From: Bacilli bacterium
GTDB taxonomy: Bacteria; Bacillota_I; Bacilli_A; RFN20; CAG-826
NCBI GenBank assembly: GCA_017477255.1
Contig: JAFUXB010000005.1
Coordinates: 1-64,000, forward strand
DNA: 64,000 bases
Reading direction: 5' to 3'
Shown here one piece after another: positions 4,897 through 26,314 of this stretch. The notes under the pieces were generated by a model. It searched no databases. It had not been told where the DNA came from and worked only from the letters and a program-made list of their open reading frames with translations. The translations under genes were made by a program, and so were the position numbers. Position 1 is the first letter of the stretch. Every line of letters starts with the position of its first letter.

Positions 4897-4950
4897 ACTA
4901 GACACTTTTTCGCTATTTTGCAAAACTGTCTAGTAGCACTAGACACTTTT
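4897..4950. promoter_or_regulatory. candidate operator: dyad plus extra half-site
   Basis: A perfect interrupted palindrome, TGTCTAGT-AGC-ACTAGACA, lies at 4927-4945. A third copy of the right half with its flank (ACTAGACACTTTT) is at 4897-4909 and is repeated at 4938-4950. The array ends about 37 bp before the -35 box of the promoter at 4987. The geometry fits a transcription-factor site; the binding protein is unknown. Confidence 0.5.
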
Positions 4951-4986
4951 ACATCATATTTTTTTATCATTTTTTAAAATAAATAC

Positions 4987-5015
4987 TTGCACGAATAATA
5001 TTAATATATTATATT
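4987..5015 (+). promoter_or_regulatory. sigma-A-type promoter of the c-di-GMP riboswitch transcript
   Basis: TTGCAC at 4987-4992, a spacer of exactly 17 bp, and TATATT at 5010-5015. The expected transcription start near 5021-5023 coincides with the 5' edge of the riboswitch. Confidence 0.8.
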
Positions 5016-5017
5016 AA

Positions 5018-5115
5018 TAGCAGTGAAAAGCAAACTCATAGCAATATGGGGACGCAAAGCTATAGGGCCTTATAGAGGTAGCCAGTTGCCGTCAAGAAAG
5101 TAGATACGGTAAACT
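5018..5115 (+). ncRNA. cyclic di-GMP-I (GEMM-I) riboswitch
   Basis: The aptamer shows the diagnostic conserved blocks in order: AAGCAAACTCATAGC, then GGGACGCAAAGCTA, then AGGGCC, then GGTAGCCAGTTGCCG. GGGACGCAAAGC and GGTAGC-GTTGCCG are hallmarks of the GEMM-I class, which binds cyclic di-GMP. It lies between a strong promoter and two secreted-protein genes. A minus-strand gene about 6 kb away encodes an intact EAL phosphodiesterase. Confidence 0.93.
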
Positions 5116-5127
5116 GGTATTTTTTAT
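5082..5127 (+). terminator. riboswitch expression platform (intrinsic terminator)
   Basis: CCAGTTGCCG (5082-5091) can pair with CGGTAAACTGG (5107-5117), followed by a T-rich tract (5118-5127). The 5' arm is part of the conserved 3' element of the aptamer, so ligand-bound folding and the terminator exclude each other. I infer an ON switch: c-di-GMP allows transcription of the downstream surface proteins. Confidence 0.7.
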
Positions 5128-5140
5128 TTAAAGGGTGAAT

Positions 5141-6073
5141 ATGGCAATTAAAAATAGCAAACCATTAAAATTAGTTGCAGCAACTTCTGTTGTTATTTTC
5201 ACTTTACTTGCTTGTTTTAGTGGCGTATTTGCTTGGTTTACAAGTGTTAGAGCACAAGACACTAGTGGTAATTCAATGGCAATTGATTCTATTAGTGGTA
5301 AATTTTATAAATTAAGTTTACATAGACATGTTGAAGGAACTGGTGATTTTGAACCACAATCAACTGCAACTACTGTTTCTTTTAATAAAGAAGCTGAAGC
5401 TTCAGTTACAATTAGAAGTTGGAATCCAAGAGATCTAGATCCAGTTAATATGGATAACGCTTTACTTATGGGTAGCTATAACCCAAATCATCAAAGTGAT
5501 CCTGTTTTAATGCTTATTGAATTAAATGATTCTTATACAATTGAAGAAGGATCATCTTATAAAATTAATGCATCAATTACTAAACCTGTTGAAGGTAGTG
5601 ATACTTATGATGCAGATGTTACTTCATTTAAAAAAAGATATGGATTAAAAGATACTGATCCTCTTGAACCAGAATTTATTGGAAAAAATGTTGGATATGA
5701 TTTTGATGTAACAACTGATGATAATCCATTAAGTTCAATTGTTAAATATTATTCAACTGCTTATGCAGATGAAGATGCTTTAGACGCAATTACAAGTGAT
5801 TCTTCATATGATATTTCAAAATCAAGTCTAACTACTACTGGTTCATTTTTTACAATGACTACTAGTACAGATGGAACTATGACTTATAATCAAGATTTTG
5901 ATGATACAAAAGATTTTTATGTAGCTAACGCAGGTGAAACTGTTAAATATATTGCAGTTATTTTTGATTATTACTCAGAAGCTTTAGAATATATCTATAA
6001 TATCAACTTAGGTGATGAAAGACTTGATGAAGATATTATTAAATTTAAATGTGATTGGAATATGGTGGTCTAA
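5141..6073 (+). CDS. secreted surface protein with SipW-type signal, c-di-GMP controlled
   Basis: 310 aa from ATG 5141; a GTG at 5135 lies inside the AAAGGGTG ribosome site and is less likely. The N-terminus has a basic start, a hydrophobic segment and then GVFAWFTS, the style of TasA/CalY-like and SipW-dependent signal peptides. The mature part is Asp/Ser/Thr-rich and beta-strand-like, with no catalytic motif. It may be a fibre or matrix protein. The start follows the c-di-GMP riboswitch directly, and the gene ends at the base before the next start, so both form one operon. No SipW-type peptidase gene is visible in the window. Confidence 0.72.
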   Translation: MAIKNSKPLKLVAATSVVIFTLLACFSGVFAWFTSVRAQDTSGNSMAIDSISGKFYKLSLHRHVEGTGDFEPQSTATTVSFNKEAEASVTIRSWNPRDLDPVNMDNALLMGSYNPNHQSDPVLMLIELNDSYTIEEGSSYKINASITKPVEGSDTYDADVTSFKKRYGLKDTDPLEPEFIGKNVGYDFDVTTDDNPLSSIVKYYSTAYADEDALDAITSDSSYDISKSSLTTTGSFFTMTTSTDGTMTYNQDFDDTKDFYVANAGETVKYIAVIFDYYSEALEYIYNINLGDERLDEDIIKFKCDWNMVV

Positions 6074-9000
6074 ATGAAAAGTAGAACTTTAAGAAAAATT
6101 ATTGCTGCTACAACTTTAGTATTAGGAGTTGCTATTTCAGTCACTTCTTCTTTATCTTGGTTTGATGAAACAGTAAAAATTGAAACTGAAAATGTTACTG
6201 GTGTTTCAGAAGGTGCTTATTTCCATAGTGGAAACGGAACTAAAGATTATCCTTATACTATTACAAGAAAAAGACATTTATATAACTTAGCATGGCTTCA
6301 ATATTTAGGATATTTTCTTTCAAAAGATAGTGAAGGAAATATAAAAAGTGAACAAAACACTGTTTATTTCAGACTTTTAAATGATATTAATATGGATGGA
6401 ATGTATATTCCTCCAATTGGAACAAGTGAATATCCATTTATTGGAAACTTTGATGGTCAAGGTTATAAAGTTACTAATTTTAAAACAACTAATGATTATT
6501 CAGATTTTACTGGCGAAGGACAAAAACACCCTTACACTGTTACAACTGATAATTTTAAAGATAATCAAGTCAAAATTGTTGGTTTTTTTGGTGTAGTTGG
6601 TTCAATTGGTGATTCTTCAAATTACACATATGATTCAAAAACTAACCAAGTTAAAAATGTTGGACTTGATAACTTTGAAGTTAAATCAAAAGCAACTGAT
6701 ACTTTAGTTGGTTTAGCTGCAGGTTATGTTAATGGTGAACTTGCTAGTGTTGCAGTTAATAATGGTAAGTTAAATTTAACATCTGAAACTGCAACTACTG
6801 CTTTAGATAGCACTAACTTAACTTCAAATGTTTCAGATTATAGTATTGTTGGTTATGCTACTGATCCTTATAAAACTAAAGTAACTAAAGTAAGTCAAAG
6901 TGCTTATAAAGTTAATAGAGCTCAAACCCAAGAATTTGTTGTTCAAGAAGATGGCGATGAAAACGGTTATGGTGGTTCAATTGATATGAAATCACTTCAT
7001 ACTAGATTAAATAACATTAAAGATAATTACGCCACTAATGCTAGATACGACTACTGGAGAACTTACGATTATCATTCTGGCGTTAAAGACACTAATTATA
7101 CTGCAACAGCTTATGCATCTAATTATTATTCAGCCATTTATAATACTAACGATACTGCTGGTCACTATAATTTTGCATTACGTGATGACACCTACGACTC
7201 TCGTTATACTTATCTTGCTGGTGGTTACTATGAAACAGGTAATTATTATGAATTAGCTGATCATAAGCAGTTTGTTATATTCAATGGTACATACTATATT
7301 CAATGTAATGGAACAACAATTGACAAAACGACAAATGAATCTAACGCCACAACTTTTGAAATGGATTCTACTGGAAAAATTTTTTATAAAGTCAACAATT
7401 CCACGTATTATCTCAGAAATTATTATGGTGATTTAGCTGCTACAAACAACGAAGGATACGCCACTTCCTGGACTATAAACGATGATAAAACATATAGAAT
7501 TATTGGGAGCACTTACAATTCTCAAAATTATTACATAAAATATGATACAACTTCTGAAAGTTGGATATTAGATACATATGAAGTCACTTATTCAATTTCA
7601 TACCAAAATACAAATAACCACTTATCAACTAGCGGTAACAATTTAAGTAATTCAACAACAAATTCCCCTATTTGGTATTTAAGTTCATTAACAGGTACAA
7701 CTACAATTTACACAATAATAAATGGTCAACGATACTACCTTTACAGAAATAATGGCAACTTAAGATTAAATACAAATAGTCAGAACTGGAATATAGAAAG
7801 CAACGGCGATTATTTAAGATTTTATAATTACAGAGACTATTATGGAAATTATTATCTATCTTTTTATTATAATAACTGGACTTTAAGGTCAAATACAAAT
7901 AATGCAAATTTATTAGTAACAAAATATATACAAGATGTTAGTTCATATATACAAAAAACATCATTTACTACTATAAGTAAAGCAGGCCCAGATGAAGTCT
8001 TAGACAAAACAGTAGCCAAAATGACTTTTGAAGCTGAAAACACAACATATTTCCCTTTAGCAACAAAAAATAATACTAATGACTTTACTCCATTAGAAAA
8101 GAATTCTGCGTATATTATTTCTGGTTCATCAATTAGTGGAACAGTTAGTAGTTATAAAGATGTTGGAAATACTCGTGTTTCTTATTATCCAATTAGTGGC
8201 AATTTAAAAAACTTTGATAGATCTACTGGAGAATTCACGCAACTTTATACTGTTGATTATAGTGGCAGCACTCTTACAAGACAAACTATCCCAGAAAATA
8301 ACACATACGTTAGATATAAAGATGCAAAGGCATCACTTGAAAAAGTTTTAAGCAATGATGGTACAAATGCCTATGGTATGCACTTTATGGATGCGTCAAT
8401 TTCCAAGGAAAATATAATCACTGCTCCTTATGTTAAATTAAATAAAGATGACTTATATAATTATGAGTTACCTGTTAATTCAATTGACTTCCAATTAAAA
8501 GAATTTGGTTATATAAATTTTATAGCTGGTACATACTATGTAAGCACTCAAGGGACCGGCTACAACAACTCAAGTTTCTTTGCTTTATATAAAATAGAAA
8601 GATTAGATTCTGAACCTAAAAAGATTAATAGGATTTTAGAGATTGATAAAGTATACAAGCATACATCAGGTAATGAAAATTATTCATATGTATATCAATT
8701 AAAAGACGGCAATTCTACTTTCTATACAAAACCTTATAAAATAATAAATCAAGCTGGTGATAAAGCTTGGCTTGATGATAGTGATACAAGCCCTTATTCC
8801 ACTAATACTTATGTAGAAACATTACCTTCAGGCTATACATTAGCTTTTGATGTAGCAAGAATTCGTAAAAATAATATTGCAACTTCAACTTTTAACTATA
8901 ATGCTTATTATTTTGAAATACCTATGAATGATGGTGAATTCTGCTTAGGATCTGTTGAGGGCTCTGATGGCTCTTACTTAATGTACTTAGATATTGCAGC

Positions 9001-9847
9001 GAATGCACAAAATGTTGCTAGAACTGTATTTGCTGAATATTTCTTAAGATACGAAGATGAATATAATTTCCCAATTGGTGTTGCTGTTGTTAGTGATGTT
9101 GCTATCATTAGTACTCACACAAACACAACCGACCAAAGAACTTATGCTTCTGACTCATTTACAGTTATTATTGAACCTGGATATAAAGATAAGTTAGAAG
9201 TTTCTAGAGATACATCTGGAGCAATTCTTACTCGAAGTACGACAAGCAGCCTTGCTGAGCCGGGATATAAAGATGCTGATTTATCTTTAAAAGAAAACAA
9301 CGAAGAAATTACAGAATTTAAATATAACAAACGTACTACTTACGAAACAGTAAGAAATATCATAATAGATAGAGATACACGATTAGAAAGTAATACAATT
9401 ACTGTAATTGAAGAAAATTATATTGATGGTGTCTTAGATGGTTCTAGATCAGTAAAACAATATAATGAAACAATCGATGAAGCAAACTTAGTTTCACCTG
9501 ATAAAGCTAAATATTATTTAGTAAATGCAGACAAAGGAACAGGCAAAATTTGTACTGAAAGCGAAATTATTACAGTCCAACCAGACAAATCCAATTCCAA
9601 TGTATTAATAACTTACACTTACTTAATGCAAGATGGTTCTACTTCAACTAATACATTTGTATTAAACTTTACAAAAGAAACAGATACAAACTACTACACT
9701 GCTAATGGATACACAATTAGTGTTACATTAACTCCAGCTGAAGATAGTGAAGACACACTTGTAATGACTGTTACAGTTTATAATGCTAATGGTGAAAAAA
9801 TATCAATTAATACCATCACTATCAATGGTACTGGACCTGTTGCTTAA
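6074..9847 (+). CDS. very large secreted adhesin-like protein, c-di-GMP controlled
   Basis: 1257 aa. A signal peptide (residues about 1-30, ending SLSWFDE) again carries the S-W-F motif of its partner. Residues about 50-180 hold a GLUG-like beta-helix block (IPPIGTSEYPFIGNFDGQGY). Residues about 395-615 form several Tyr/Asn/Trp-rich units (W-x-I-x, YYL-x-NN-G-x-L) that look like a beta-trefoil or ricin-B-like carbohydrate-binding repeat. The rest is Thr/Tyr/Asn-rich strands. There is no sortase motif or C-terminal anchor. Codons in the middle region end in C more often than the flanks, hinting at domain exchange. The ATG follows the upstream stop codon immediately. Confidence 0.75.
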   Translation: MKSRTLRKIIAATTLVLGVAISVTSSLSWFDETVKIETENVTGVSEGAYFHSGNGTKDYPYTITRKRHLYNLAWLQYLGYFLSKDSEGNIKSEQNTVYFRLLNDINMDGMYIPPIGTSEYPFIGNFDGQGYKVTNFKTTNDYSDFTGEGQKHPYTVTTDNFKDNQVKIVGFFGVVGSIGDSSNYTYDSKTNQVKNVGLDNFEVKSKATDTLVGLAAGYVNGELASVAVNNGKLNLTSETATTALDSTNLTSNVSDYSIVGYATDPYKTKVTKVSQSAYKVNRAQTQEFVVQEDGDENGYGGSIDMKSLHTRLNNIKDNYATNARYDYWRTYDYHSGVKDTNYTATAYASNYYSAIYNTNDTAGHYNFALRDDTYDSRYTYLAGGYYETGNYYELADHKQFVIFNGTYYIQCNGTTIDKTTNESNATTFEMDSTGKIFYKVNNSTYYLRNYYGDLAATNNEGYATSWTINDDKTYRIIGSTYNSQNYYIKYDTTSESWILDTYEVTYSISYQNTNNHLSTSGNNLSNSTTNSPIWYLSSLTGTTTIYTIINGQRYYLYRNNGNLRLNTNSQNWNIESNGDYLRFYNYRDYYGNYYLSFYYNNWTLRSNTNNANLLVTKYIQDVSSYIQKTSFTTISKAGPDEVLDKTVAKMTFEAENTTYFPLATKNNTNDFTPLEKNSAYIISGSSISGTVSSYKDVGNTRVSYYPISGNLKNFDRSTGEFTQLYTVDYSGSTLTRQTIPENNTYVRYKDAKASLEKVLSNDGTNAYGMHFMDASISKENIITAPYVKLNKDDLYNYELPVNSIDFQLKEFGYINFIAGTYYVSTQGTGYNNSSFFALYKIERLDSEPKKINRILEIDKVYKHTSGNENYSYVYQLKDGNSTFYTKPYKIINQAGDKAWLDDSDTSPYSTNTYVETLPSGYTLAFDVARIRKNNIATSTFNYNAYYFEIPMNDGEFCLGSVEGSDGSYLMYLDIAANAQNVARTVFAEYFLRYEDEYNFPIGVAVVSDVAIISTHTNTTDQRTYASDSFTVIIEPGYKDKLEVSRDTSGAILTRSTTSSLAEPGYKDADLSLKENNEEITEFKYNKRTTYETVRNIIIDRDTRLESNTITVIEENYIDGVLDGSRSVKQYNETIDEANLVSPDKAKYYLVNADKGTGKICTESEIITVQPDKSNSNVLITYTYLMQDGSTSTNTFVLNFTKETDTNYYTANGYTISVTLTPAEDSEDTLVMTVTVYNANGEKISINTITINGTGPVA

Positions 9848-9851
9848 CAAA

Positions 9852-9882
9852 ATAAGGAGCGAATTAAATCGCTCCTTTTAAT
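9852..9882 (+). terminator. intrinsic terminator of the surface-protein operon
   Basis: AGGAGCGA and TCGCTCCT form an 8-bp stem with a 6-nt loop, followed by TTTTAAT just after the stop of the adhesin gene. Confidence 0.85.
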
Positions 9883-9908
9883 ATGCAAATAATGTGTTAT
9901 TTTTTGAT

Positions 9909-9936
9909 AAACCTTGTAAAACTCAACTCTTTTTGA
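9909..9936 (-). repeat. dispersed 30-bp motif, copy 1
   Basis: Minus-strand copy containing GAGTTTTACAAGGTTTATC. It overlaps the end of the YwaF-like gene and supplies its TGA stop. Confidence 0.6.
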
Positions 9937-10693
9937 CTAATTTAGTAATTCCATATACTATAAAATGAGTTGCAACACCTGTAATTAAATAAGCACTAAC
10001 GCTAATTAAAGTCCAAACTAAATGATGAACATTTTCATAAATGAATTTAAATACTCCAAATGTATGTCCATCATAAATATACATATAATCCATTCCAGTA
10101 ATATGATCAAAAATAAATACTAATATTGCAAGTATCAAAAACAACCCTAAACCATATAAAAAGTCTAATTTTTCTACTTTATAAATACCTGTAATTAACA
10201 TTATTAAAGGAACTATAAAAATTAATGTATGAAATAATAATGTATGTAATCCAAAAAATGAAAATACACTACATCCTTTTCCTCCAAAACCTACAAATAA
10301 AGTAATAAATCCCATAATCATATTAATAGTAACTAAGAAATTATTAGCTGCTTTTTTAATAATTGGAACTTTACAAAAGAAAGCTAAAGGAAACACATAC
10401 ATAAACATTGAACAAGAATGTAATGGCAATAGTATTGTTGTATCAAATGGTAAATTTTCCATTCCTTTAGCTACACATGTCCAAACAATAATCCATTTAA
10501 CTAAATCTATCGCAATAACAAAAATCCACATAGAAATTAATGTAATTCTAATTGTGGATTCTTTTTTCTTTCTTAATAAAAAACTTAATGCTAAACCTAC
10601 TATAATAGTTAAAGCAATAAATAAAAAATGTTCTAATGTAAAACTAAATGGACCTTCTCTATTAAACCAATCTCTTTTAAGAAAAAAGTTCAT
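9923..10693 (-). CDS. YwaF-family (TIGR02206-like) integral membrane protein
   Basis: 256 aa with six or seven membrane segments. It carries LPLHSCSMFMYVFPLAFF, the conserved LPLH-x-C motif of YwaF/TIGR02206 proteins, and later NVHHLVW. The family's function is not established. It is the last gene of the minus-strand signalling operon. A TATAAT sits only 2 bp before the ATG, too close to serve this start, so expression from the upstream Hpt gene is more likely. Its stop codon lies inside a copy of the dispersed 30-bp motif. Confidence 0.78.
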   Translation of the reverse strand: MNFFLKRDWFNREGPFSFTLEHFLFIALTIIVGLALSFLLRKKKESTIRITLISMWIFVIAIDLVKWIIVWTCVAKGMENLPFDTTILLPLHSCSMFMYVFPLAFFCKVPIIKKAANNFLVTINMIMGFITLFVGFGGKGCSVFSFFGLHTLLFHTLIFIVPLIMLITGIYKVEKLDFLYGLGLFLILAILVFIFDHITGMDYMYIYDGHTFGVFKFIYENVHHLVWTLISVSAYLITGVATHFIVYGITKLVKKS

Positions 10694-10702
10694 ATATTAT
10701 AG

Positions 10703-10737
10703 CAAAAACACTGCAAATCTAAGCTATTTTTAAAAAA
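10703..10737 (-). repeat. dispersed 30-bp motif, copy 2
   Basis: Minus-strand copy with core TTAGATTTGCAGTGTTTTTG, abutting the TAA stop of the Hpt gene and filling the gap before the YwaF-like gene. Confidence 0.65.
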
Positions 10738-11094
10738 TTAACCTAATTGATCAATTTTAGAAATAATGTTTACGTAAGAAAAATTAAGTTCTTCCATTTC
10801 TTTTTCTAAATCTACTTCTTCTAAATTTTCATAATTTCTAACTTTTTCACAAATAGCACTAGAAATACTAAAAAGTGGAGTTAATGATAAATTTCCTGCA
10901 ACACCTTTAAGTGAATGTGAAGCTTCAAAAACCTTTTTATAATCTTTTTCTTCATAGCCACTAACTATATCGCCATAACTATTGCTTTGCTTAAACATAA
11001 CAAGCATTCTAGTAATAAGTTGTTCATTCATTAATCTACCAAGTGCTTCTTGATAGTTTCCGCCAATAAGCACATAAAATTCCTGTAAAGTCAT
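10738..11094 (-). CDS. histidine phosphotransfer (Hpt) domain protein
   Basis: 118 aa, a single Hpt four-helix domain. The phosphorylatable His is in ASHSLKGVAGNLSL, matching the H-x-L-K-G-x-x-x-x-x-G consensus. Such proteins relay phosphate between a receiver domain and a histidine kinase. It begins 1 bp after the REC-GGDEF-EAL gene, so it may service that receiver. No histidine kinase gene is present in the window, so the phosphate source must be elsewhere. Confidence 0.88.
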   Translation of the reverse strand: MTLQEFYVLIGGNYQEALGRLMNEQLITRMLVMFKQSNSYGDIVSGYEEKDYKKVFEASHSLKGVAGNLSLTPLFSISSAICEKVRNYENLEEVDLEKEMEELNFSYVNIISKIDQLG

Positions 11095-11095
11095 A

Positions 11096-12769
11096 TTAAC
11101 TCTCCTTTTCTAATAATAATATAAAATCATCATATTTAAGTGGTTTTGATAAGTAATATCCTTGAATTAAGTTACATCCTAATGATTTTAAGAAATCGCA
11201 TTGTTCTTTAGTTTCAACACCTTCTGCTACAGTTTTTACTTTTAAAATCTTTGAAAGATTTATTATAAACTTGATAACTTTTCTTGAATTCTTATTTGAA
11301 TCAAACTTTCTCATAAATATCATATCTAGTTTTAAATAATCAAAAGGAAGATCTGTAATTGCATTTAATGTAGAATATCCAGTACCAAAATCATCCATTT
11401 CAATTAAATAATTATCATTTCTAAATGAATTTAAAATTCCTATTAATTGTTCTCCATCACGAGTATAAGCGCTTTCAGTAACTTCTAAATGAATGTCTTT
11501 ATGTTCTAAATTATTTTTAGCTAAAATGCTATCAACTTTCTTTTTAATTTCTAAAACAAAAAAGTCATTTCTTGAAAAATTAACTGAGATCTGCAGGGTT
11601 TTTGAATAATTCTCTTTAAAAAACTTTAAATCTTTACATACTTTTTGAAGCACATAAGTATCTAATTTTTTAATTAATCCATTCTTTTCAAAAAGTGGAA
11701 TAAAATCCCCTGGAGAAATAAAACCAAGTTCAGGATGAATCCATCTAACTAAAGCTTCTGCACCTTCAAGTTTTGGTTTATCTCCTTCAATATTAAATTT
11801 AGGTTGATAATAAATAATGAATTCTTCATTTTTAATTGCATTATCAAAATCACTAATTAATTTTTCAATATAAATATTTTGTTCAATACTTTTTGTATCA
11901 TAAAATCCAATATCTTGAGTTTGATCATCATTTGAATCTACAGCACTCATTGCTCTATCACACAAAACATTAATTTCTGAAGATTTATCAACATTTTGAT
12001 AAACACCGATTTTTACTTTTAAATTAATTCTTTCATGAAGTAAAGATAGTTCATTATTTAATACTTCTACTATATTTTCATAATTTGAAATATGATCAAT
12101 TAAAACATAAAAATAATCATCATGACTTCTACAGGCAATACCATTATTTTTATTAGCAAATTTAACTAATTCTTTAGCTATATTTTTTAAGATAGTATTT
12201 GATTTTTCGCTGCCTAAATAATCATGTAGAAAAATAAAGTTAGTTAATCTAATAGCGATTAAATCGTGTTTTTTACTGTTAAGTAAAATACCTTCACCAT
12301 ATAAATTAAAAGCTTCAGCATTTAATAAACCAGTTAGTTCATCTTCACGAGTTTTATTAACAACAATTTTAGATTCATATAAATCAATTAATTTAGCAAT
12401 TCGCGCTTTAATTACTTCTACATCATCATATGGTTTTTTAATAAAATCACTAGCTCCAAGTTTTAAACTTTTTACTTCCAATTCTTTTTCTGAAGTAGAA
12501 ACAATAACTGGAATATCTTTAATATTTATATTTGCTTTTTTTCTTTTTAAAACTTCAAAGCCATCAACTTTAGGCATTAATAAATCAAGTATGACAATAG
12601 TGATATATTCTTCTTTATTTAATATTTCTAAAGCTTCCTCACCATTGCTTGCAGTTAAAATCTCATAAGTATCTTTTAACATCTCAGCTAAAATAGTTCG
12701 ATTAATTAACTCATCATCGACTATTAATATTCTTCTTTTAATATTTAGTAAATTCTGATTCTTATACAT
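11096..12769 (-). CDS. response regulator with degenerate GGDEF and intact EAL c-di-GMP phosphodiesterase
   Basis: 557 aa. An N-terminal receiver (about 12-130) has phospho-acceptor Asp in VILDLLMP and Lys in KKPYDD. A GGDEF-like domain (about 140-300) has SHDDYF where GGDEF should be, so it is probably not a cyclase. The EAL domain (about 305-550) keeps its catalytic set: EALVRW, SVNFS, EVTES, MDDFGTGYS, LKLD and VAEGVET. It should hydrolyse c-di-GMP in the cytoplasm under phosphorylation control. The ribosome site AAGAGG lies 13 bp upstream. It is embedded between the PP2C sensor and the Hpt gene. Confidence 0.93.
   Translation of the reverse strand: MYKNQNLLNIKRRILIVDDELINRTILAEMLKDTYEILTASNGEEALEILNKEEYITIVILDLLMPKVDGFEVLKRKKANINIKDIPVIVSTSEKELEVKSLKLGASDFIKKPYDDVEVIKARIAKLIDLYESKIVVNKTREDELTGLLNAEAFNLYGEGILLNSKKHDLIAIRLTNFIFLHDYLGSEKSNTILKNIAKELVKFANKNNGIACRSHDDYFYVLIDHISNYENIVEVLNNELSLLHERINLKVKIGVYQNVDKSSEINVLCDRAMSAVDSNDDQTQDIGFYDTKSIEQNIYIEKLISDFDNAIKNEEFIIYYQPKFNIEGDKPKLEGAEALVRWIHPELGFISPGDFIPLFEKNGLIKKLDTYVLQKVCKDLKFFKENYSKTLQISVNFSRNDFFVLEIKKKVDSILAKNNLEHKDIHLEVTESAYTRDGEQLIGILNSFRNDNYLIEMDDFGTGYSTLNAITDLPFDYLKLDMIFMRKFDSNKNSRKVIKFIINLSKILKVKTVAEGVETKEQCDFLKSLGCNLIQGYYLSKPLKYDDFILLLEKES
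11585..11606 (+). repeat. match to the dispersed motif inside the EAL coding region
   Basis: TGAGATCTGCAGGGTTTTTG differs from the intergenic motif core by one base over this stretch. It overlaps the codons for the conserved EAL segment TLQISVNF on the other strand. The residues are family-conserved, so this may be coincidence. Confidence 0.35.
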
Positions 12770-12794
12770 ACGAAATTAAAACCTCTTATCTTAA

Positions 12795-14654
12795 CTATTT
12801 ATTAATATTATATTTGATAACTAAAACATTTTTATCATTTAATCTATCATAACTAAATGAAGATGCTAAATTTTTAACCATTAAAATTCCAAGTCCACCT
12901 TCTTCTAGTTTCTTTTCTTCACCAGTAATAGATTCTCTATTAACTTCAGTTTGATTAAATTTAACGCCCCTATCAATAAAAATTAATGTAATAACTTTTT
13001 TTACTCTATTATATTCATATCTAAAATAAACATCGCCAATGTCGCCATTATAGGCAAATTTAGCAATATTAGAATATATTTCATCTGCAATAATAGTTAA
13101 TTCATTAGTAATTTTAGAAGATAGTTCATCTTCCTTAGTTCCTTCTTTAATAACTTTAAATATTTCTTCAATATTTTCAGGTTTAGATTTAACTAAAATA
13201 TCTTTGATATTTGCTTCATCAGCTTTATAAGCTAAAGCAAGTAAAGTAATATCATCAGCTTGTTCAGCTTCACCAATAAATTTACTAACTTCTTCTTTTA
13301 AATCATAAAACATAGAAACGTGAGAAGTATATTCTTTCTTATTTAATTCTTTTAAAAGTCTTAGTTCGCCAAAGAATTCACCTTTTTCGTTTCTAGCTTC
13401 AGTAACTCCATCTGTATAAAGTAAGATGATATCGTTACTTTCTAATTTAATTTTTTGATCCATTAATGGAACATCTTCAATACATCCAAGTAAAAATCCT
13501 GAATAACAATCAAGTAATTCATATTTATTATTTCTTTTAATTACTGGATGATTATGACCGGCATTTGAATAAGTAAATTCACCAGTTTTAGTATCTAAAA
13601 TACCTAAGAAACAAGTAACAAACATTTGTGAAGAATTACCTTCACATAAAACTTTATTTACTTTCTTTAATATTTCACTTGGAGATTCACTTATATTAAT
13701 AAAATTTTTAATACAAGTGATTGTTTTCATCATAAACATTGCACCAGGTGTACCTTTTCCACTAACATCGCCTATTACAATTGCTACATGTGTATCATCA
13801 AGTTGGAAATAATCATATAAATCACCACCAACTTCTTTAGCTGGTTTAAGTTCAGCTAATATTGTTACATCTTTTGAATTAGTAAATTCATCAGGCAATG
13901 CACTTCTTTGAATTTCTTCAGCAATACTTAATTCTGTTTCAATTCTAGAATGATTATTAGATAAATTAATTTCATCACTTAATAATTTAAATGTTCTTTT
14001 ATTTAATGCATCAGTAATAAAGAAAACAACAGTTAAAAAGATAGCTCTAGCTAAATAATAATAAACAAATACTTTAATATATCTATTATCTCCTTGTTGA
14101 ACTTTTTCATTTAAAAATGCGACTCTTTCTTCAAATGTATTTAATTCAACTAATATATTTCTACCTGCTTCTTCATCATATACAATCTTTGCTCCATTAA
14201 ATAAATTAAGATCATATTCACCAAAAAACATACCAGCATATATACAAATAAGCATTGTAATAAGTGAAGTAAAAAATATAACTCTACCAACTTTAGGACT
14301 ATAATAATGATTTGCTAAAACAATACAAGCAGCCCAACCAATCATAGCATGTTTTGGCATAGCTACATTAACTGTAGCAATAACAGTCATAAATATAAAA
14401 AGAAGGAAATATTTCATTCCAGGCTTATTAAAAAATTTAGTTTTTTGCCAAATTAATGTAGATAACATCATGACAATATTGTATGGAAAGAAAATATTGA
14501 CTAAAAGTAAACTTCTAATAGGAAATACTTTAGTTAAATATAAAATATAAATAATTGTTAAAACAATCGCTGAAAAAACAGAGACTTTAACCATCTGTTT
14601 ATTGGCGTCATGTTCATTTTTTTCTAAAGTATCAATTTGAATACTTTTTTTCAT
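12795..14654 (-). CDS. membrane PP2C (SpoIIE/RsbU-type) phosphatase fused to RsbW-like ATPase
   Basis: 619 aa from ATG 14654; a GTG at 14663 overlaps the upstream stop but AGGTG fits the ATG better. About six membrane segments (about 25-225) with a short extracytoplasmic section are followed by a linker containing SIAEEIQRSALP. A PP2C domain (about 250-470) has VGGDLYDYF, GDVSGKG, SNAGHNHP and YTDGVTEA. A C-terminal GHKL ATPase (about 490-615) has NELTIIADEIYSNIAKFA and EGGLGILMVKNL. Phosphatase and anti-sigma-type kinase in one chain implies self-contained partner switching on the upstream STAS protein. Confidence 0.92.
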   Translation of the reverse strand: MKKSIQIDTLEKNEHDANKQMVKVSVFSAIVLTIIYILYLTKVFPIRSLLLVNIFFPYNIVMMLSTLIWQKTKFFNKPGMKYFLLFIFMTVIATVNVAMPKHAMIGWAACIVLANHYYSPKVGRVIFFTSLITMLICIYAGMFFGEYDLNLFNGAKIVYDEEAGRNILVELNTFEERVAFLNEKVQQGDNRYIKVFVYYYLARAIFLTVVFFITDALNKRTFKLLSDEINLSNNHSRIETELSIAEEIQRSALPDEFTNSKDVTILAELKPAKEVGGDLYDYFQLDDTHVAIVIGDVSGKGTPGAMFMMKTITCIKNFINISESPSEILKKVNKVLCEGNSSQMFVTCFLGILDTKTGEFTYSNAGHNHPVIKRNNKYELLDCYSGFLLGCIEDVPLMDQKIKLESNDIILLYTDGVTEARNEKGEFFGELRLLKELNKKEYTSHVSMFYDLKEEVSKFIGEAEQADDITLLALAYKADEANIKDILVKSKPENIEEIFKVIKEGTKEDELSSKITNELTIIADEIYSNIAKFAYNGDIGDVYFRYEYNRVKKVITLIFIDRGVKFNQTEVNRESITGEEKKLEEGGLGILMVKNLASSFSYDRLNDKNVLVIKYNINK

Positions 14655-14655
14655 T

Positions 14656-15810
14656 TTATGCACCTATATCTAAATCATTATATTGTTTTAAAAGTTCAGC
14701 TAATTTTTTATTTGATTTATCTAAATGCTTTAATGATTCTGGTTCAAATGTTAAATCCCACCACATCATGTGAATATAAGAAACAATTCTGATCTTATTT
14801 AAAATATCTTCATTATAGTTATCAAAATAATCTTTTAAGATTTGAATGTACATTTTTCTAGTTAATTCGCCATTCATTTTTAAGAAAACTTCGTTATTTC
14901 CAGGAATATCTTCTTCAAATGCACAATATGTTGCATAAATTGCAGCAAGTTCAAAAATTGGATGTCCAATTGATAATGTGTCCATATCAATTAAGAATAA
15001 TTCATCACCTTGAACCATAATATTTTTAACATGGCAATCACCATGAATAAATGTTTTTCTATAAGGGATTCCTTTTAAAAGTTCTCTACATTTAAAGAAA
15101 TCTTCAACATCTAAATAAGGTTGAATTGCTTCAAGTTTTTTAAACCATTCCTTTTTAGCATCAGGTAAGGTTTCATCTGTTGATTCTGTTGTATTAATTT
15201 TCTTTAAAAGATTTGCATATTTAGCACATAATTCATCAAATCTTTCAGGATAATTAACAAATAAATCTCTTAAAGAATGAGAATCTAACATTTCAAATCT
15301 AACACCTAATTTGTCATTAACTTTGACTATATCGAATGAAATTGCAGTTGGAATTCCTAAAATAAAGGCTTGTTTACAAAGATTTAATTCTCTTTCAATT
15401 TCTTTAATATCATTTTGTCTTTCATAAACTTTAATAATTGTGTCTTTATTAATTCTATAAACTTTTGAATAATAACCAGTTCCAATTATTTCACATCCTG
15501 TAACATCAACAACTGCTAATGCTTTTTTAATTTCCATTAAATTAGTAAAACCAGTCATTTGTAAAACATCATAAACTTCTAAAGAGGCATTAATTATAGA
15601 AACATCTTTATATTTTTGTTTAAGTTTTAAAATTATTCTAAGTCCAGCACTAGAAACATAAACAACTTTTTCAAAATCTAAAATTAATTTCTCAAATTGT
15701 TTTCCTTCTAATGTTTTATTAACATCTTCTTCAACACTAGCTGCTGTGGCGCTATTAATTTCTCCTACGAAAATTAATCTAAGTTCATTACCATCTAATT
15801 TAAATTCCAT
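14656..15810 (-). CDS. STAS domain fused to aminoglycoside-phosphotransferase-like kinase (TIGR02172-like)
   Basis: 384 aa. Residues 1-100 are a STAS/anti-sigma antagonist domain with the phosphorylatable Ser in YVSSAGLRII. Residues about 105-375 are an APH/choline-kinase-like fold with the ATP loop (GTGYYSKVYR, IIKVYE), the catalytic loop HGDCHVKNIM and the metal-binding LIDMDTLSIG. STAS-kinase fusions of the TIGR02172 type occur in anaerobes, but their substrate is unknown. The next gene starts 1 bp after this stop and encodes the matching phosphatase/kinase. A strong GGAGG precedes the ATG. Confidence 0.85.
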   Translation of the reverse strand: MEFKLDGNELRLIFVGEINSATAASVEEDVNKTLEGKQFEKLILDFEKVVYVSSAGLRIILKLKQKYKDVSIINASLEVYDVLQMTGFTNLMEIKKALAVVDVTGCEIIGTGYYSKVYRINKDTIIKVYERQNDIKEIERELNLCKQAFILGIPTAISFDIVKVNDKLGVRFEMLDSHSLRDLFVNYPERFDELCAKYANLLKKINTTESTDETLPDAKKEWFKKLEAIQPYLDVEDFFKCRELLKGIPYRKTFIHGDCHVKNIMVQGDELFLIDMDTLSIGHPIFELAAIYATYCAFEEDIPGNNEVFLKMNGELTRKMYIQILKDYFDNYNEDILNKIRIVSYIHMMWWDLTFEPESLKHLDKSNKKLAELLKQYNDLDIGA

Positions 15811-15935: not shown

Positions 15936-16547
15936 TTAACGATATTCATCAGTAATATACTTGGTGAAAGCATCTAAAAACTCTTGTTCAGGCATTCCAT
16001 CATATAAATATTCATCAAATTTTTCAGAAATTTCTCTTTTTGACAAATCATCATATTGAATAAGATCATCCACACTAAAATATGTTAACTTATTATCTTT
16101 GAATGGAAAAATTCTAGTATCATCTAAAAATTTAAAATAATTATATCCGAAAAAACCCAAATATTCAGATACATAAAAATAATCAAGATTTAAAAAATAA
16201 TCCAAAACTTCTTTCTCGTTACTTGTAAAGTGCTTTCTATTGTCAAAATTTATTAAACTATTTTCATAAATAAGATAACAATTAACGCGATTATTTTTCT
16301 CTTCAACAACTTTATCAAAGTATCCAATAGAAAAATTATTTAAACAATCAAAATTAATAACTTTTGCGTTTCTATCAATTAAATAAGATTTAATCTCAAA
16401 TTTAACTAAATTAATATTAAATAAAACAGTTTTATCATTCTCTAAAATACCAAACTTAGGATCTAAGTCGAAAACAAAATCGTGCTTTTGACATCCACAC
16501 AACGTTAAAACAAAAAATAAATTAATTAAATGTTTAATCTTTTTCAT
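15936..16547 (-). CDS. small putative lipoprotein
   Basis: 203 aa with a signal peptide ending FVLTLCGC, a lipobox with Cys18 or so as the lipidated residue. The mature part is Phe/Tyr/Asp-rich without a known domain. It overlaps the start side of the next lipoprotein gene (ending 16534) by 14 bp, so translation is probably coupled. Sequence differs from the two paralogues upstream, although length and architecture are similar. Function unknown; surface-exposed by inference. Confidence 0.65.
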   Translation of the reverse strand: MKKIKHLINLFFVLTLCGCQKHDFVFDLDPKFGILENDKTVLFNINLVKFEIKSYLIDRNAKVINFDCLNNFSIGYFDKVVEEKNNRVNCYLIYENSLINFDNRKHFTSNEKEVLDYFLNLDYFYVSEYLGFFGYNYFKFLDDTRIFPFKDNKLTYFSVDDLIQYDDLSKREISEKFDEYLYDGMPEQEFLDAFTKYITDEYR

Positions 16548-17148
16548 AAAATCCTTGATAAAAATTTAAAAACTCTTGAATAGAATTATAATTCTTTAAA
16601 TCTTGTTTAAATTTATAATAGTTAATCTTTTTTAGATATGATTCATCTATATAAGATTCAGTTAATTCAAAATAAAAATTATCATTTAAAATAGGCAAAA
16701 TATATAATGGTGAAAAAGATAAATTATCCATAAAATGATATCCGCTTAAATATGTAATTGGATGTACAATCATTAAAATACCATCAAACTCAGCATTAAA
16801 ATAGCCATTACCATTTTCAATATCTTTATAGTTTTCATTTAAAATTGAACGATCAATTCTAAATTCATAACTAAAACCTGAACGTTCAATCTTACGACTT
16901 CTAATATATTCACTTCTTATTCCATCTACAAAAGAAAAACGTAATAAAAGATTTTCAGTTCCAAAATAATAAGAAATACGTTTCTCGTCTTTGAATGAAT
17001 AAATAGTCAAAAAACTATCATACCCATCATAGGTAAGCATTTCATTCAATCCATTATAAAAATTTAAGTCAAATTTATTTTTATTTGAACATGAAAAAGT
17101 CAATAAACTTAAATAAACTATAATATTTTTAAATTTCAACGCCTTCAT
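16534..17148 (-). CDS. small putative lipoprotein, paralogue of the 17297-17932 product
   Basis: 204 aa. The signal peptide ends SLLTFSC. It aligns with the product encoded at 17297-17932: FDLNFYNGLNE matches FDFYNTLDE, YDGYDSFL matches YDGKHSYL, FSPLYILP matches FSPLYVIP, and INYYKFKQDLKNY matches INYFKFKNDILNY. The two arose by tandem duplication. No known domain. AAGGAG lies about 17 bp before the ATG, which is distant. Confidence 0.65.
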   Translation of the reverse strand: MKALKFKNIIVYLSLLTFSCSNKNKFDLNFYNGLNEMLTYDGYDSFLTIYSFKDEKRISYYFGTENLLLRFSFVDGIRSEYIRSRKIERSGFSYEFRIDRSILNENYKDIENGNGYFNAEFDGILMIVHPITYLSGYHFMDNLSFSPLYILPILNDNFYFELTESYIDESYLKKINYYKFKQDLKNYNSIQEFLNFYQGFYEKD

Positions 17149-17296
17149 TAAACACTAAGACTCCTTGTTCATATAATTCTATATCATCATTTGTAATTAT
17201 AAAGAAATTAGAAACCATTATACTTCCGTTTTAACCATATAAAGGGATCTATTCAAACTTAAACACATCGATAATAAAAGAAATAATTTAATCGTT

Positions 17297-17932
17297 TTAA
17301 TAAGCTCCATGCTTATAGCAATAATCTACATATAACTTAATAAAATCTTCTTTGTTAGAATAATTCAATATATCGTTTTTAAATTTAAAATAATTAATCC
17401 TTTCTAAATAATTTTTGTGATAAAAATTTTCGATAAATTCAAAATCAATTGAGTTTTCATTAAATGGAATTACATATAACGGTGAGAAAAAACAACATTC
17501 TAATCCATAAATACCAGTTTGTTTATAATTTAATGGATTTAAAACAATCATTAATGTATTAATATTTAAAAATGAAAATTTAGTTGTTCTATCTTTAATT
17601 TCTAATAAAAATTGATCAGAAAGAACAGATTTAAAAACATTAACAGCAATTAAGCCTGCATAGTTGTTAATAATATTGTTGACTATATGCAACTTCGGAT
17701 GACCATATGCATTTTCAATAAAAATATCTAAATAATAATCGTATTCAAAAACTTGAATTGTTAACCCTTCACTAAATGTTTCTTCTATTAAATATGAATG
17801 TTTTCCATCATAGCAAAAATATTCGTCTAAGGTATTATAAAAATCAAATTGCATTTTGCTTTTATTGGTACTACATGAGCATAAACTACAACTTAAAATT
17901 AAACCTATTAAAAATTTTTTTGCCTTTTTCAT
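17297..17932 (-). CDS. small putative lipoprotein, paralogue of the 16534-17148 product
   Basis: 211 aa with signal peptide ending LCSCS (lipobox). Shared blocks with its paralogue (see that entry) span most of the mature chain, with identity moderate by eye. No ribosome site is visible upstream of the ATG. A TAAATT box with a preceding TG stands 5 bp before it, so the start context is unclear. The 148-bp gap to the paralogue holds only a 29-codon frame of doubtful meaning (17120-17209). Confidence 0.62.
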   Translation of the reverse strand: MKKAKKFLIGLILSCSLCSCSTNKSKMQFDFYNTLDEYFCYDGKHSYLIEETFSEGLTIQVFEYDYYLDIFIENAYGHPKLHIVNNIINNYAGLIAVNVFKSVLSDQFLLEIKDRTTKFSFLNINTLMIVLNPLNYKQTGIYGLECCFFSPLYVIPFNENSIDFEFIENFYHKNYLERINYFKFKNDILNYSNKEDFIKLYVDYCYKHGAY

Positions 17933-26146: not shown

Positions 26147-26314
26147 GATTTCACCGATAGCTCCTCTACATAATTGTAGGAGTCTATAAGATTTTCTCTT
26201 ATAGCCCAACTCCCTTAAATACCTTTAAGGTGTTTCGGCAACTTCGCCTTTCACTAGCATCATTAGATGTCTCTTCAACTAGTTACTTTTCTAATTGCGC
26301 CTCTATCAATCTCG
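26147..26314 (-). ncRNA. lysine riboswitch (L-box)
   Basis: The minus-strand RNA shows the L-box core in order: GATAGAGGCGC, AAAAGTAACTAG, GTGAAAGGCGAAGTTGCCG, GGGAGTTGGGCT and GGAGCTATCGGTG. The first and last blocks pair (GATAG with CTATC, extended by G-U pairs) to close P1. Several stem-loops in between match the five-helix layout. It controls the amino-acid ABC importer and marks it as a lysine transporter. Confidence 0.9.

Follow-up and report, generated by a model that had tools for sequence, protein, structure and literature searches.

What does a riboswitch for cyclic diguanylate (c-di-GMP) control when it stands before two genes for secreted-type proteins, and does the operon for a c-di-GMP enzyme that converges on these genes belong to the same circuit? 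This question is raised by a stretch of 64,000 nucleotides, in the following called the window, from a Bacilli bacterium (GTDB lineage Bacteria; Bacillota_I; Bacilli_A; RFN20; CAG-826; contig JAFUXB010000005.1 of assembly GCA_017477255.1). The window represents contig C3 of the 837 kb assembly, which is estimated to be 53% complete. A preliminary description of this DNA had proposed a local circuit in which producer and consumer of the signal lie side by side and switch the cell between adhesion and release. Our analysis leads to a different reading. The riboswitch is probably a transcriptional c-di-GMP ON switch for the two open reading frames behind it, ORF1 and ORF2, and one output of a regulon that extends over the whole order, with the neighbouring EAL operon as an independent sink for the signal.

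Judged by its sequence and predicted fold, the element at 5019-5093 on the plus strand is a member of the c-di-GMP-I (GEMM-I) riboswitch family. It matched RF01051 with 58.4 bits against a gathering score of 35 (E 7.7e-9) and is the only c-di-GMP-I aptamer that Rfam finds in the window. A riboswitch model specific for the order gave it 78.6 bits, the window being among the model's own sequences. The aptamer is coupled to an expression platform: a terminator hairpin at 5081-5118, followed by a U-tract, folded with −14.4 kcal/mol (z −3.47), and its 5' arm (CCAGUUGCCGU) is the 3' strand of the aptamer. Aptamer and terminator are therefore mutually exclusive, which is the layout of an ON switch, and ligand binding is predicted to prevent termination. 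The same arrangement recurs in relatives. The 5' arm of a terminator started at least 4 nt inside the aptamer in 66 of 109 riboswitches of the order, as compared to 3-9 when the flanks were shuffled, so the ON layout is the common one there. The scan accepted a simple hairpin with a T-run and allowed no bulge; as the bulged hairpin of the window itself escapes it, the true number is probably higher than 66. The GEMM-I riboswitch and the ON-type terminator platform of the preliminary description were thus both recovered.

In Clostridioides difficile, many class I c-di-GMP riboswitches are OFF switches. The one in the window might likewise be an OFF switch, or its hairpin might not be an effective platform, and c-di-GMP would then repress the secreted proteins. 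The direction of control that we favor is indeed a predicted one, and 43 of the 109 riboswitches showed no overlapping terminator in the simple scan. The strand shared between aptamer and terminator, in the window as in 66 relatives, however, corresponds to the ON layout, and no anti-terminator alternative was seen. We regard repression by c-di-GMP as very unlikely.

ORF1 and ORF2 abut, the former ending at 6073 and the latter starting at 6074, and both have the N-terminus of a secreted-type protein, as had been claimed. We defined a SipW-type signal as a hydrophobic stretch ending in T-x-A-W/Y-F/Y. The GVFAWF of ORF1 fits this form, the SSLSWF of ORF2 only a looser version of it. ORF1 belongs to no Pfam or NCBIfam family. 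A profile of its own family gave 31 strong matches in the order, with a redundant contig counted once, and 30 of these have a riboswitch directly upstream. For 28 of the 30 a listed riboswitch lay no more than about 70 nt upstream, and two (L258 and L259) were added after their DNA had been fetched. For the sole exception (in G087) the contig ends at a distance of 157 nt, and no riboswitch was found in that interval. The preliminary description had named a lack of conservation of the adjacency as a result that would refute it. This is what we found for the adjacency to the EAL operon, discussed below, but not for the unit of riboswitch and surface-type protein, which is conserved. ORF1 is a candidate surface or filament subunit. 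In the relatives of ORF2 a GTxxxPYxI module follows directly after the signal. The ORF2 profile matched the structure of a putative IgA1 protease (3n6z, E 5.9e-5) and, weakly, the lectin SeviL (E 0.024); RicinB_lectin_2 was weakly matched in 2 of 19 ORF2 relatives (best E 0.0078). ORF2 is therefore no more than a candidate adhesin.

Across the order, RF01051 was found in 123 of 279 genomes, the comparison genomes being mostly draft assemblies. Within the genus it occurred in 5 of 25 genomes, and strong EAL and GGDEF matches were confined to these five. We read the operons behind 111 riboswitches, namely the one in the window and 110 for which the downstream DNA was fetched. A conserved cassette, here called class A, stands behind 44 of them, and the ORF1/ORF2 unit of the window, class B, behind 33. 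A further 19 precede other proteins that were scored as having SipW-type signals; for at least three of these, the score is based on an EAL protein with a loose motif. Signalling enzymes only were found behind 6, and for 9 there was no clear downstream gene in the available DNA. The strict SipW-type motif was present in the first two genes of 74 out of 105 riboswitch operons and in none of 313 control open reading frames of at least 150 amino acids, mostly from the same order. The part of the preliminary interpretation that coupled c-di-GMP to surface proteins therefore stands in a broader form: riboswitch operons throughout the order encode surface-type proteins, often together with a phosphodiesterase, which is encoded in 29 of the 44 class A cassettes. 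The local circuit, on the other hand, was not supported, as set out further on.

In its full form, the class A cassette comprises P1, P2/P3 with SipW-type signals, P4, P5, a SipW-like signal peptidase, a membrane EAL protein, a phosphorylase-family protein and a large protein with a degenerate EAL domain. An example is L016:4073-13128, with 43 other loci, and we found no prior description of it. The peptidase matched NF046067 with E 2.9e-15, which is under that model's cutoff. P4 is predicted to lie in the membrane and contains a McrB-like AAA+ domain (McrB in the Protein Data Bank (PDB), E 3e-4; PADLOC PDC-M26A, E ~1e-36), and P5 matched no known family. Tentatively, and with the balance of our own judgement still slightly against it, we suggest that in this order c-di-GMP may control, through class I ON riboswitches, a complete, undescribed surface-assembly system. 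It would consist of SipW-type subunits, their dedicated peptidase, the membrane-anchored McrB-like AAA+ ATPase with a conserved partner (P4-P5), which would power assembly or export, large lectin-like adhesins of the ORF1/ORF2 type and a feedback phosphodiesterase. The leaders of class A (e.g. L016:4153-4287) contain a conserved TTGGGACA with hairpins next to it, placed between terminator and first gene. Rfam reported nothing besides the aptamer in this region, which is possibly a further RNA element.

The operon that converges on ORF1-ORF2 consists of four minus-strand genes from 15810 to 10738, in the order STAS-APH, SpoIIE-HATPase, REC-GGDEF-EAL and Hpt, with overlaps or gaps of at most 25 bp. 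Its Pfam domains agree with the Hpt protein, the membrane PP2C-RsbW fusion and the STAS-kinase fusion previously read from it. As PP2C, HATPase kinase and STAS domains (PF07228, PF13581, PF01740) are all present, the operon by its domain content includes a member of the partner-switching modules (RsbU/SpoIIE-RsbW-RsbV). In an alignment of 70 sequences that includes the window, none of the EAL motif residues varies, in keeping with the claim that all catalytic residues are there. The alignment of the EAL domain with MorA (4rnh, E 1e-49) extends from end to end, and solved phosphodiesterases such as RocR also align. With domain and catalytic residues complete, the protein looks catalytically intact and was filed as a predicted EAL phosphodiesterase. 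It might instead be a c-di-GMP-binding receptor or regulator rather than an active enzyme, with the PP2C/STAS proteins controlling a sigma factor. The degenerate GGDEF domain and the degenerate EAL proteins found elsewhere in the order would be compatible with such a role, but neither the invariance of the EAL residues nor the alignment with MorA and RocR is what one would expect from it, and we consider it quite unlikely.

The other half of the proposed circuit, a producer of the signal, was not found. The GGDEF signature of the window protein reads SHDDY instead of GG(D/E)EF and is not kept across the orthologues in the alignment of 70. A search of the assembled half of the genome returned this degenerate domain only and no diguanylate cyclase with an intact motif. 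The locus thus has a c-di-GMP consumer and no visible producer, and we rejected a local producer-consumer circuit.

The constituents of the EAL operon are found apart in other genomes. REC-GGDEF*-EAL (the asterisk marking the degenerate domain) and a subsequent Hpt gene make up a two-gene module that is widespread among gut Firmicutes, including Lachnospiraceae and Erysipelotrichaceae, with about 40-45% identity. In most relatives the EAL gene has Hpt immediately downstream, and a hybrid histidine kinase precedes the pair in several loci. With a limit of E 1e-80, matches to the window's EAL protein were found in 57 of the order's 279 genomes. Many of its relatives come from rumen and gut samples, and the source organism appears to be an uncultured gut lineage. 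STAS-APH was matched in 75 of the 279 genomes, with PP2C directly following it in most loci, so that STAS-APH and PP2C-RsbW form a separate conserved gene pair across the order. In 19 loci of this pair for which more downstream DNA was available, none had the EAL gene directly downstream. The operon of the window hence joins two common modules. A partial version of this combination, STAS-PP2C-EAL, occurs in G083. In a locus of another genus (L313, G222:C6:20000-39999), PP2C is followed by a GGDEF gene, with an EAL-Hpt pair no more than about 10 kb away, an arrangement that appears to link the partner-switch pair to c-di-GMP synthesis. A cluster of GGDEF/EAL, STAS, PP2C and STAS-APH genes with stops and frameshifts (L030:12500-17600, contig C4 of G018) looks like a relative of the window operon that is either decaying or poorly assembled.

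A weaker form of the circuit would do without a local producer: riboswitch operon and EAL operon could be one adhesion/release switch, kept together as the phosphodiesterase resets the riboswitch. The two units do lie side by side. The order-specific riboswitch model was run on 84 loci, most of them surrounding REC-EAL genes from a wide range of taxa, and it detected a riboswitch close to REC-EAL in one other locus among about 75. This locus (L182:2139-7024), from a distant metagenome-assembled genome of the Bacillota, is a tandem version of the window neighbourhood, with EAL-Hpt directly before a riboswitch that is followed by two SipW-type proteins. Against this, the EAL protein lies away from any riboswitch in the remaining 74 or so, and in the genus-mates G004, G018 and G024 EAL operon and riboswitches are on different contigs. 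With 2-3 riboswitches per genome of about 1.4 Mb, we estimate that one or two such adjacencies would arise by chance. A conserved adjacency of riboswitch and REC-EAL operon was therefore rejected, the observed frequency being roughly at chance level, and with a widespread EAL/Hpt pair the special link that had been proposed between this riboswitch and this operon is not supported. Some support remains for a more general clustering of riboswitch operons with c-di-GMP enzymes. Any such enzyme was present within the captured 12 kb for 19 of 52 class B riboswitches, a count that includes a few misassigned enzyme operons, compared with 1 of 20 control loci of the order. This enrichment is largely due to class A cassettes and cyclases in the vicinity, and most of the enzymes in the neighbourhood of other class B riboswitches differ from the one in the window, whose specific pair is not supported by it. 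Furthermore, the two transcripts converge with a terminator-like hairpin between them. Taking all this into account, we consider a joint switch unlikely; the EAL operon beside the riboswitch is probably a chance neighbour.

For the reading that we prefer, an ON switch in an order-wide regulon, the course of events would be as follows. At high c-di-GMP, the aptamer would hold the strand CCAGUUGCC, the terminator (5081-5129) could not form and ORF1-ORF2 would be transcribed. Both proteins would be processed by a dedicated SipW-like peptidase before they reach the cell surface, where ORF1 would serve as a small subunit of structural or filament-like type and ORF2 would be a large, modular protein resembling an adhesin. 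The window locus would represent the class B output of the regulon. The class A output would supply the peptidase, further SipW-type proteins, the membrane McrB-like ATPase and a phosphodiesterase, the latter possibly providing negative feedback. The neighbouring operon would be an independent c-di-GMP sink, a phosphorelay-controlled phosphodiesterase (REC and Hpt) attached to a conserved PP2C/STAS partner-switching pair. Responding to inputs of its own, this operon would reduce the c-di-GMP level and reach the riboswitch only via the cellular pool. Computation shows the aptamer and the mutually exclusive terminator, the order of the genes together with its conservation, and the domains and residues of the proteins; that the RNA binds c-di-GMP, in which direction it exerts control, that export depends on SipW, the role at the surface and the activity of the enzyme are inferred.

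Several observations weigh against this reading. ORF1 and ORF2 did not match the cognate_SipW model of NCBIfam (TIGR04088), for which the best relative reached 14.9 bits against a cutoff of 19, and they were consequently not filed under it. The profile of the ORF1 family matched no solved structure in the PDB at E values up to 1, and the single-sequence AlphaFold2 model of ORF1 was unusable, with a confidence (pLDDT) of 39.6. The SipW-like peptidase and the class A cassette were not found in the window's own genome, of which only about 53% is assembled; the peptidase is present in the genus-mates G004, G011, G018 and G024. The lack of an intact diguanylate cyclase in the assembled half belongs here as well. 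Finally, the association of P4 (E 1e-160 or better) with the riboswitch in the 279 genomes (both in 99, P4 only in 14, riboswitch only in 24, neither in 142) in itself supports the reading, but co-occurrence counts are here uncorrected for phylogeny.

Known systems offer partial parallels. In C. difficile, c-di-GMP riboswitches turn on the surface adhesins CD2831 and CD3246; these are class II riboswitches and the adhesins are sortase-dependent (PMC6366702). The window resembles this system in the predicted activation of surface adhesins by a riboswitch and the logic of adhesion and release, but its riboswitch is class I and its proteins carry SipW-type signals. With SipW-TasA/TapA of Bacillus subtilis and SipW-BsaA of Clostridium perfringens the proposed regulon would share a dedicated SipW-like peptidase, the signal type of its substrates and the theme of surface or biofilm fibres. 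ORF1, however, has no detectable TasA homology by sequence; membership in the TasA/camelysin family was rejected, the likeness being confined to the signal. The sipW-bsaA operon of C. perfringens is controlled by a two-component system and temperature, and a c-di-GMP riboswitch is not reported there (PMC7395162). By analogy, the system may be described as C. difficile-like riboswitch-controlled adhesins combined with SipW-dependent fibres (PMC6366702, PMC7395162). The EAL protein has the domain make-up and catalytic residues of the REC-EAL phosphodiesterases RocR and PvrR. The PP2C protein resembles SiaA by sequence, but unlike in SiaA-type PP2C/STAS switches it is fused to an RsbW-type kinase, and the STAS domain to an APH-type kinase. 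The window differs from both the RocR/PvrR and the SiaA-type systems in joining these fusions with REC-GGDEF*-EAL and Hpt in one operon.

In the open-access literature we found no paper that joins 'c-di-GMP riboswitch' with SipW, or c-di-GMP with RF39. The open-access papers that mention TasA, SipW and c-di-GMP concern Bacillus and clostridia, and their titles and abstracts contain no link between riboswitch and SipW. Most of what is known about riboswitch control of surface adhesins by c-di-GMP comes from C. difficile; SipW/TasA-type secretion has been described chiefly in Bacillus and C. perfringens, where the regulators are proteins. The repeated pairing of riboswitch and SipW-type proteins across a large order of uncultured gut bacteria with small genomes suggests a general way in which attachment is controlled there. 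It also provides several protein families that lack annotation with functions open to testing, and it points to a membrane McrB-like ATPase as a possible component of a machine for surface assembly. The features of the locus are collected in Table 1.

Table 1. Features of the riboswitch locus and the converging operon, in positions of the window.
Feature	Position	Strand	Basis
Three copies of CTAGACAnTTTT, two direct and one inverted, before the riboswitch promoter region	4898..4950	.	
Putative promoter TTGCAC-N17-TATATT	4987..5015	+	inference from direct reading of the sequence
c-di-GMP-I riboswitch aptamer (GEMM-I), RF01051	5019..5093	+	Rfam
Expression platform: terminator hairpin 5081-5118 and U-tract	5081..5129	+	folding
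ORF1, 310 amino acids, SipW-type signal SGVFAWF, conserved C-terminal DYY...CDW motif	5141..6073	+	
ORF2, 1257 amino acids, SipW-type signal, N-terminal GTKDYPYTI module, possibly lectin-like middle	6074..9847	+	
Terminator-like hairpin between the convergent units	9854..9877	.	terminator scan
TMEM164-family membrane protein, last of the minus-strand run, about 45 bp after hpt	9923..10693	-	PF14808, E 1.7e-14
Hpt phosphotransfer protein (HSLKG)	10738..11094	-	PF01627, E 2.8e-6
REC-GGDEF*-EAL, predicted c-di-GMP phosphodiesterase	11096..12769	-	Pfam REC, GGDEF and EAL; PF00563, E 6.6e-64
Membrane PP2C (SpoIIE) - RsbW-type kinase fusion	12795..14663	-	PF07228, E 1.4e-49; PF13581 (HATPase_c_2), E 1.8e-13
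STAS - APH-type kinase fusion	14656..15810	-	Pfam STAS (PF01740) and APH

Some minor points concern the surroundings. The putative promoter was not among the listed matches of a consensus promoter scan. CTAGACAnTTTT has 3 matches in the window, with 0.66 expected by chance; its copies are a possible operator or, from a scan for terminator-like structures, a possible upstream terminator. For ORF1 we chose the ATG at 5141 over the mechanical start of the reading frame, the GTG at 5135, which is less likely because the position of the AAAGGG ribosome site fits the ATG better. Contig C7 of the assembly is 100% identical to the window's contig over at least 19,948 bp, the assembly thus containing redundant sequence; a second riboswitch locus on C7 was rejected, since this copy is not a second locus. 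A row of three small, mutually similar genes of lipoprotein-like type (15936-17932, minus strand) lies upstream of the STAS-APH gene; one of them was searched against Pfam and matched no family. Rfam also detected a lysine riboswitch in the window, at 26150-26313 on the minus strand, with 87.8 bits.

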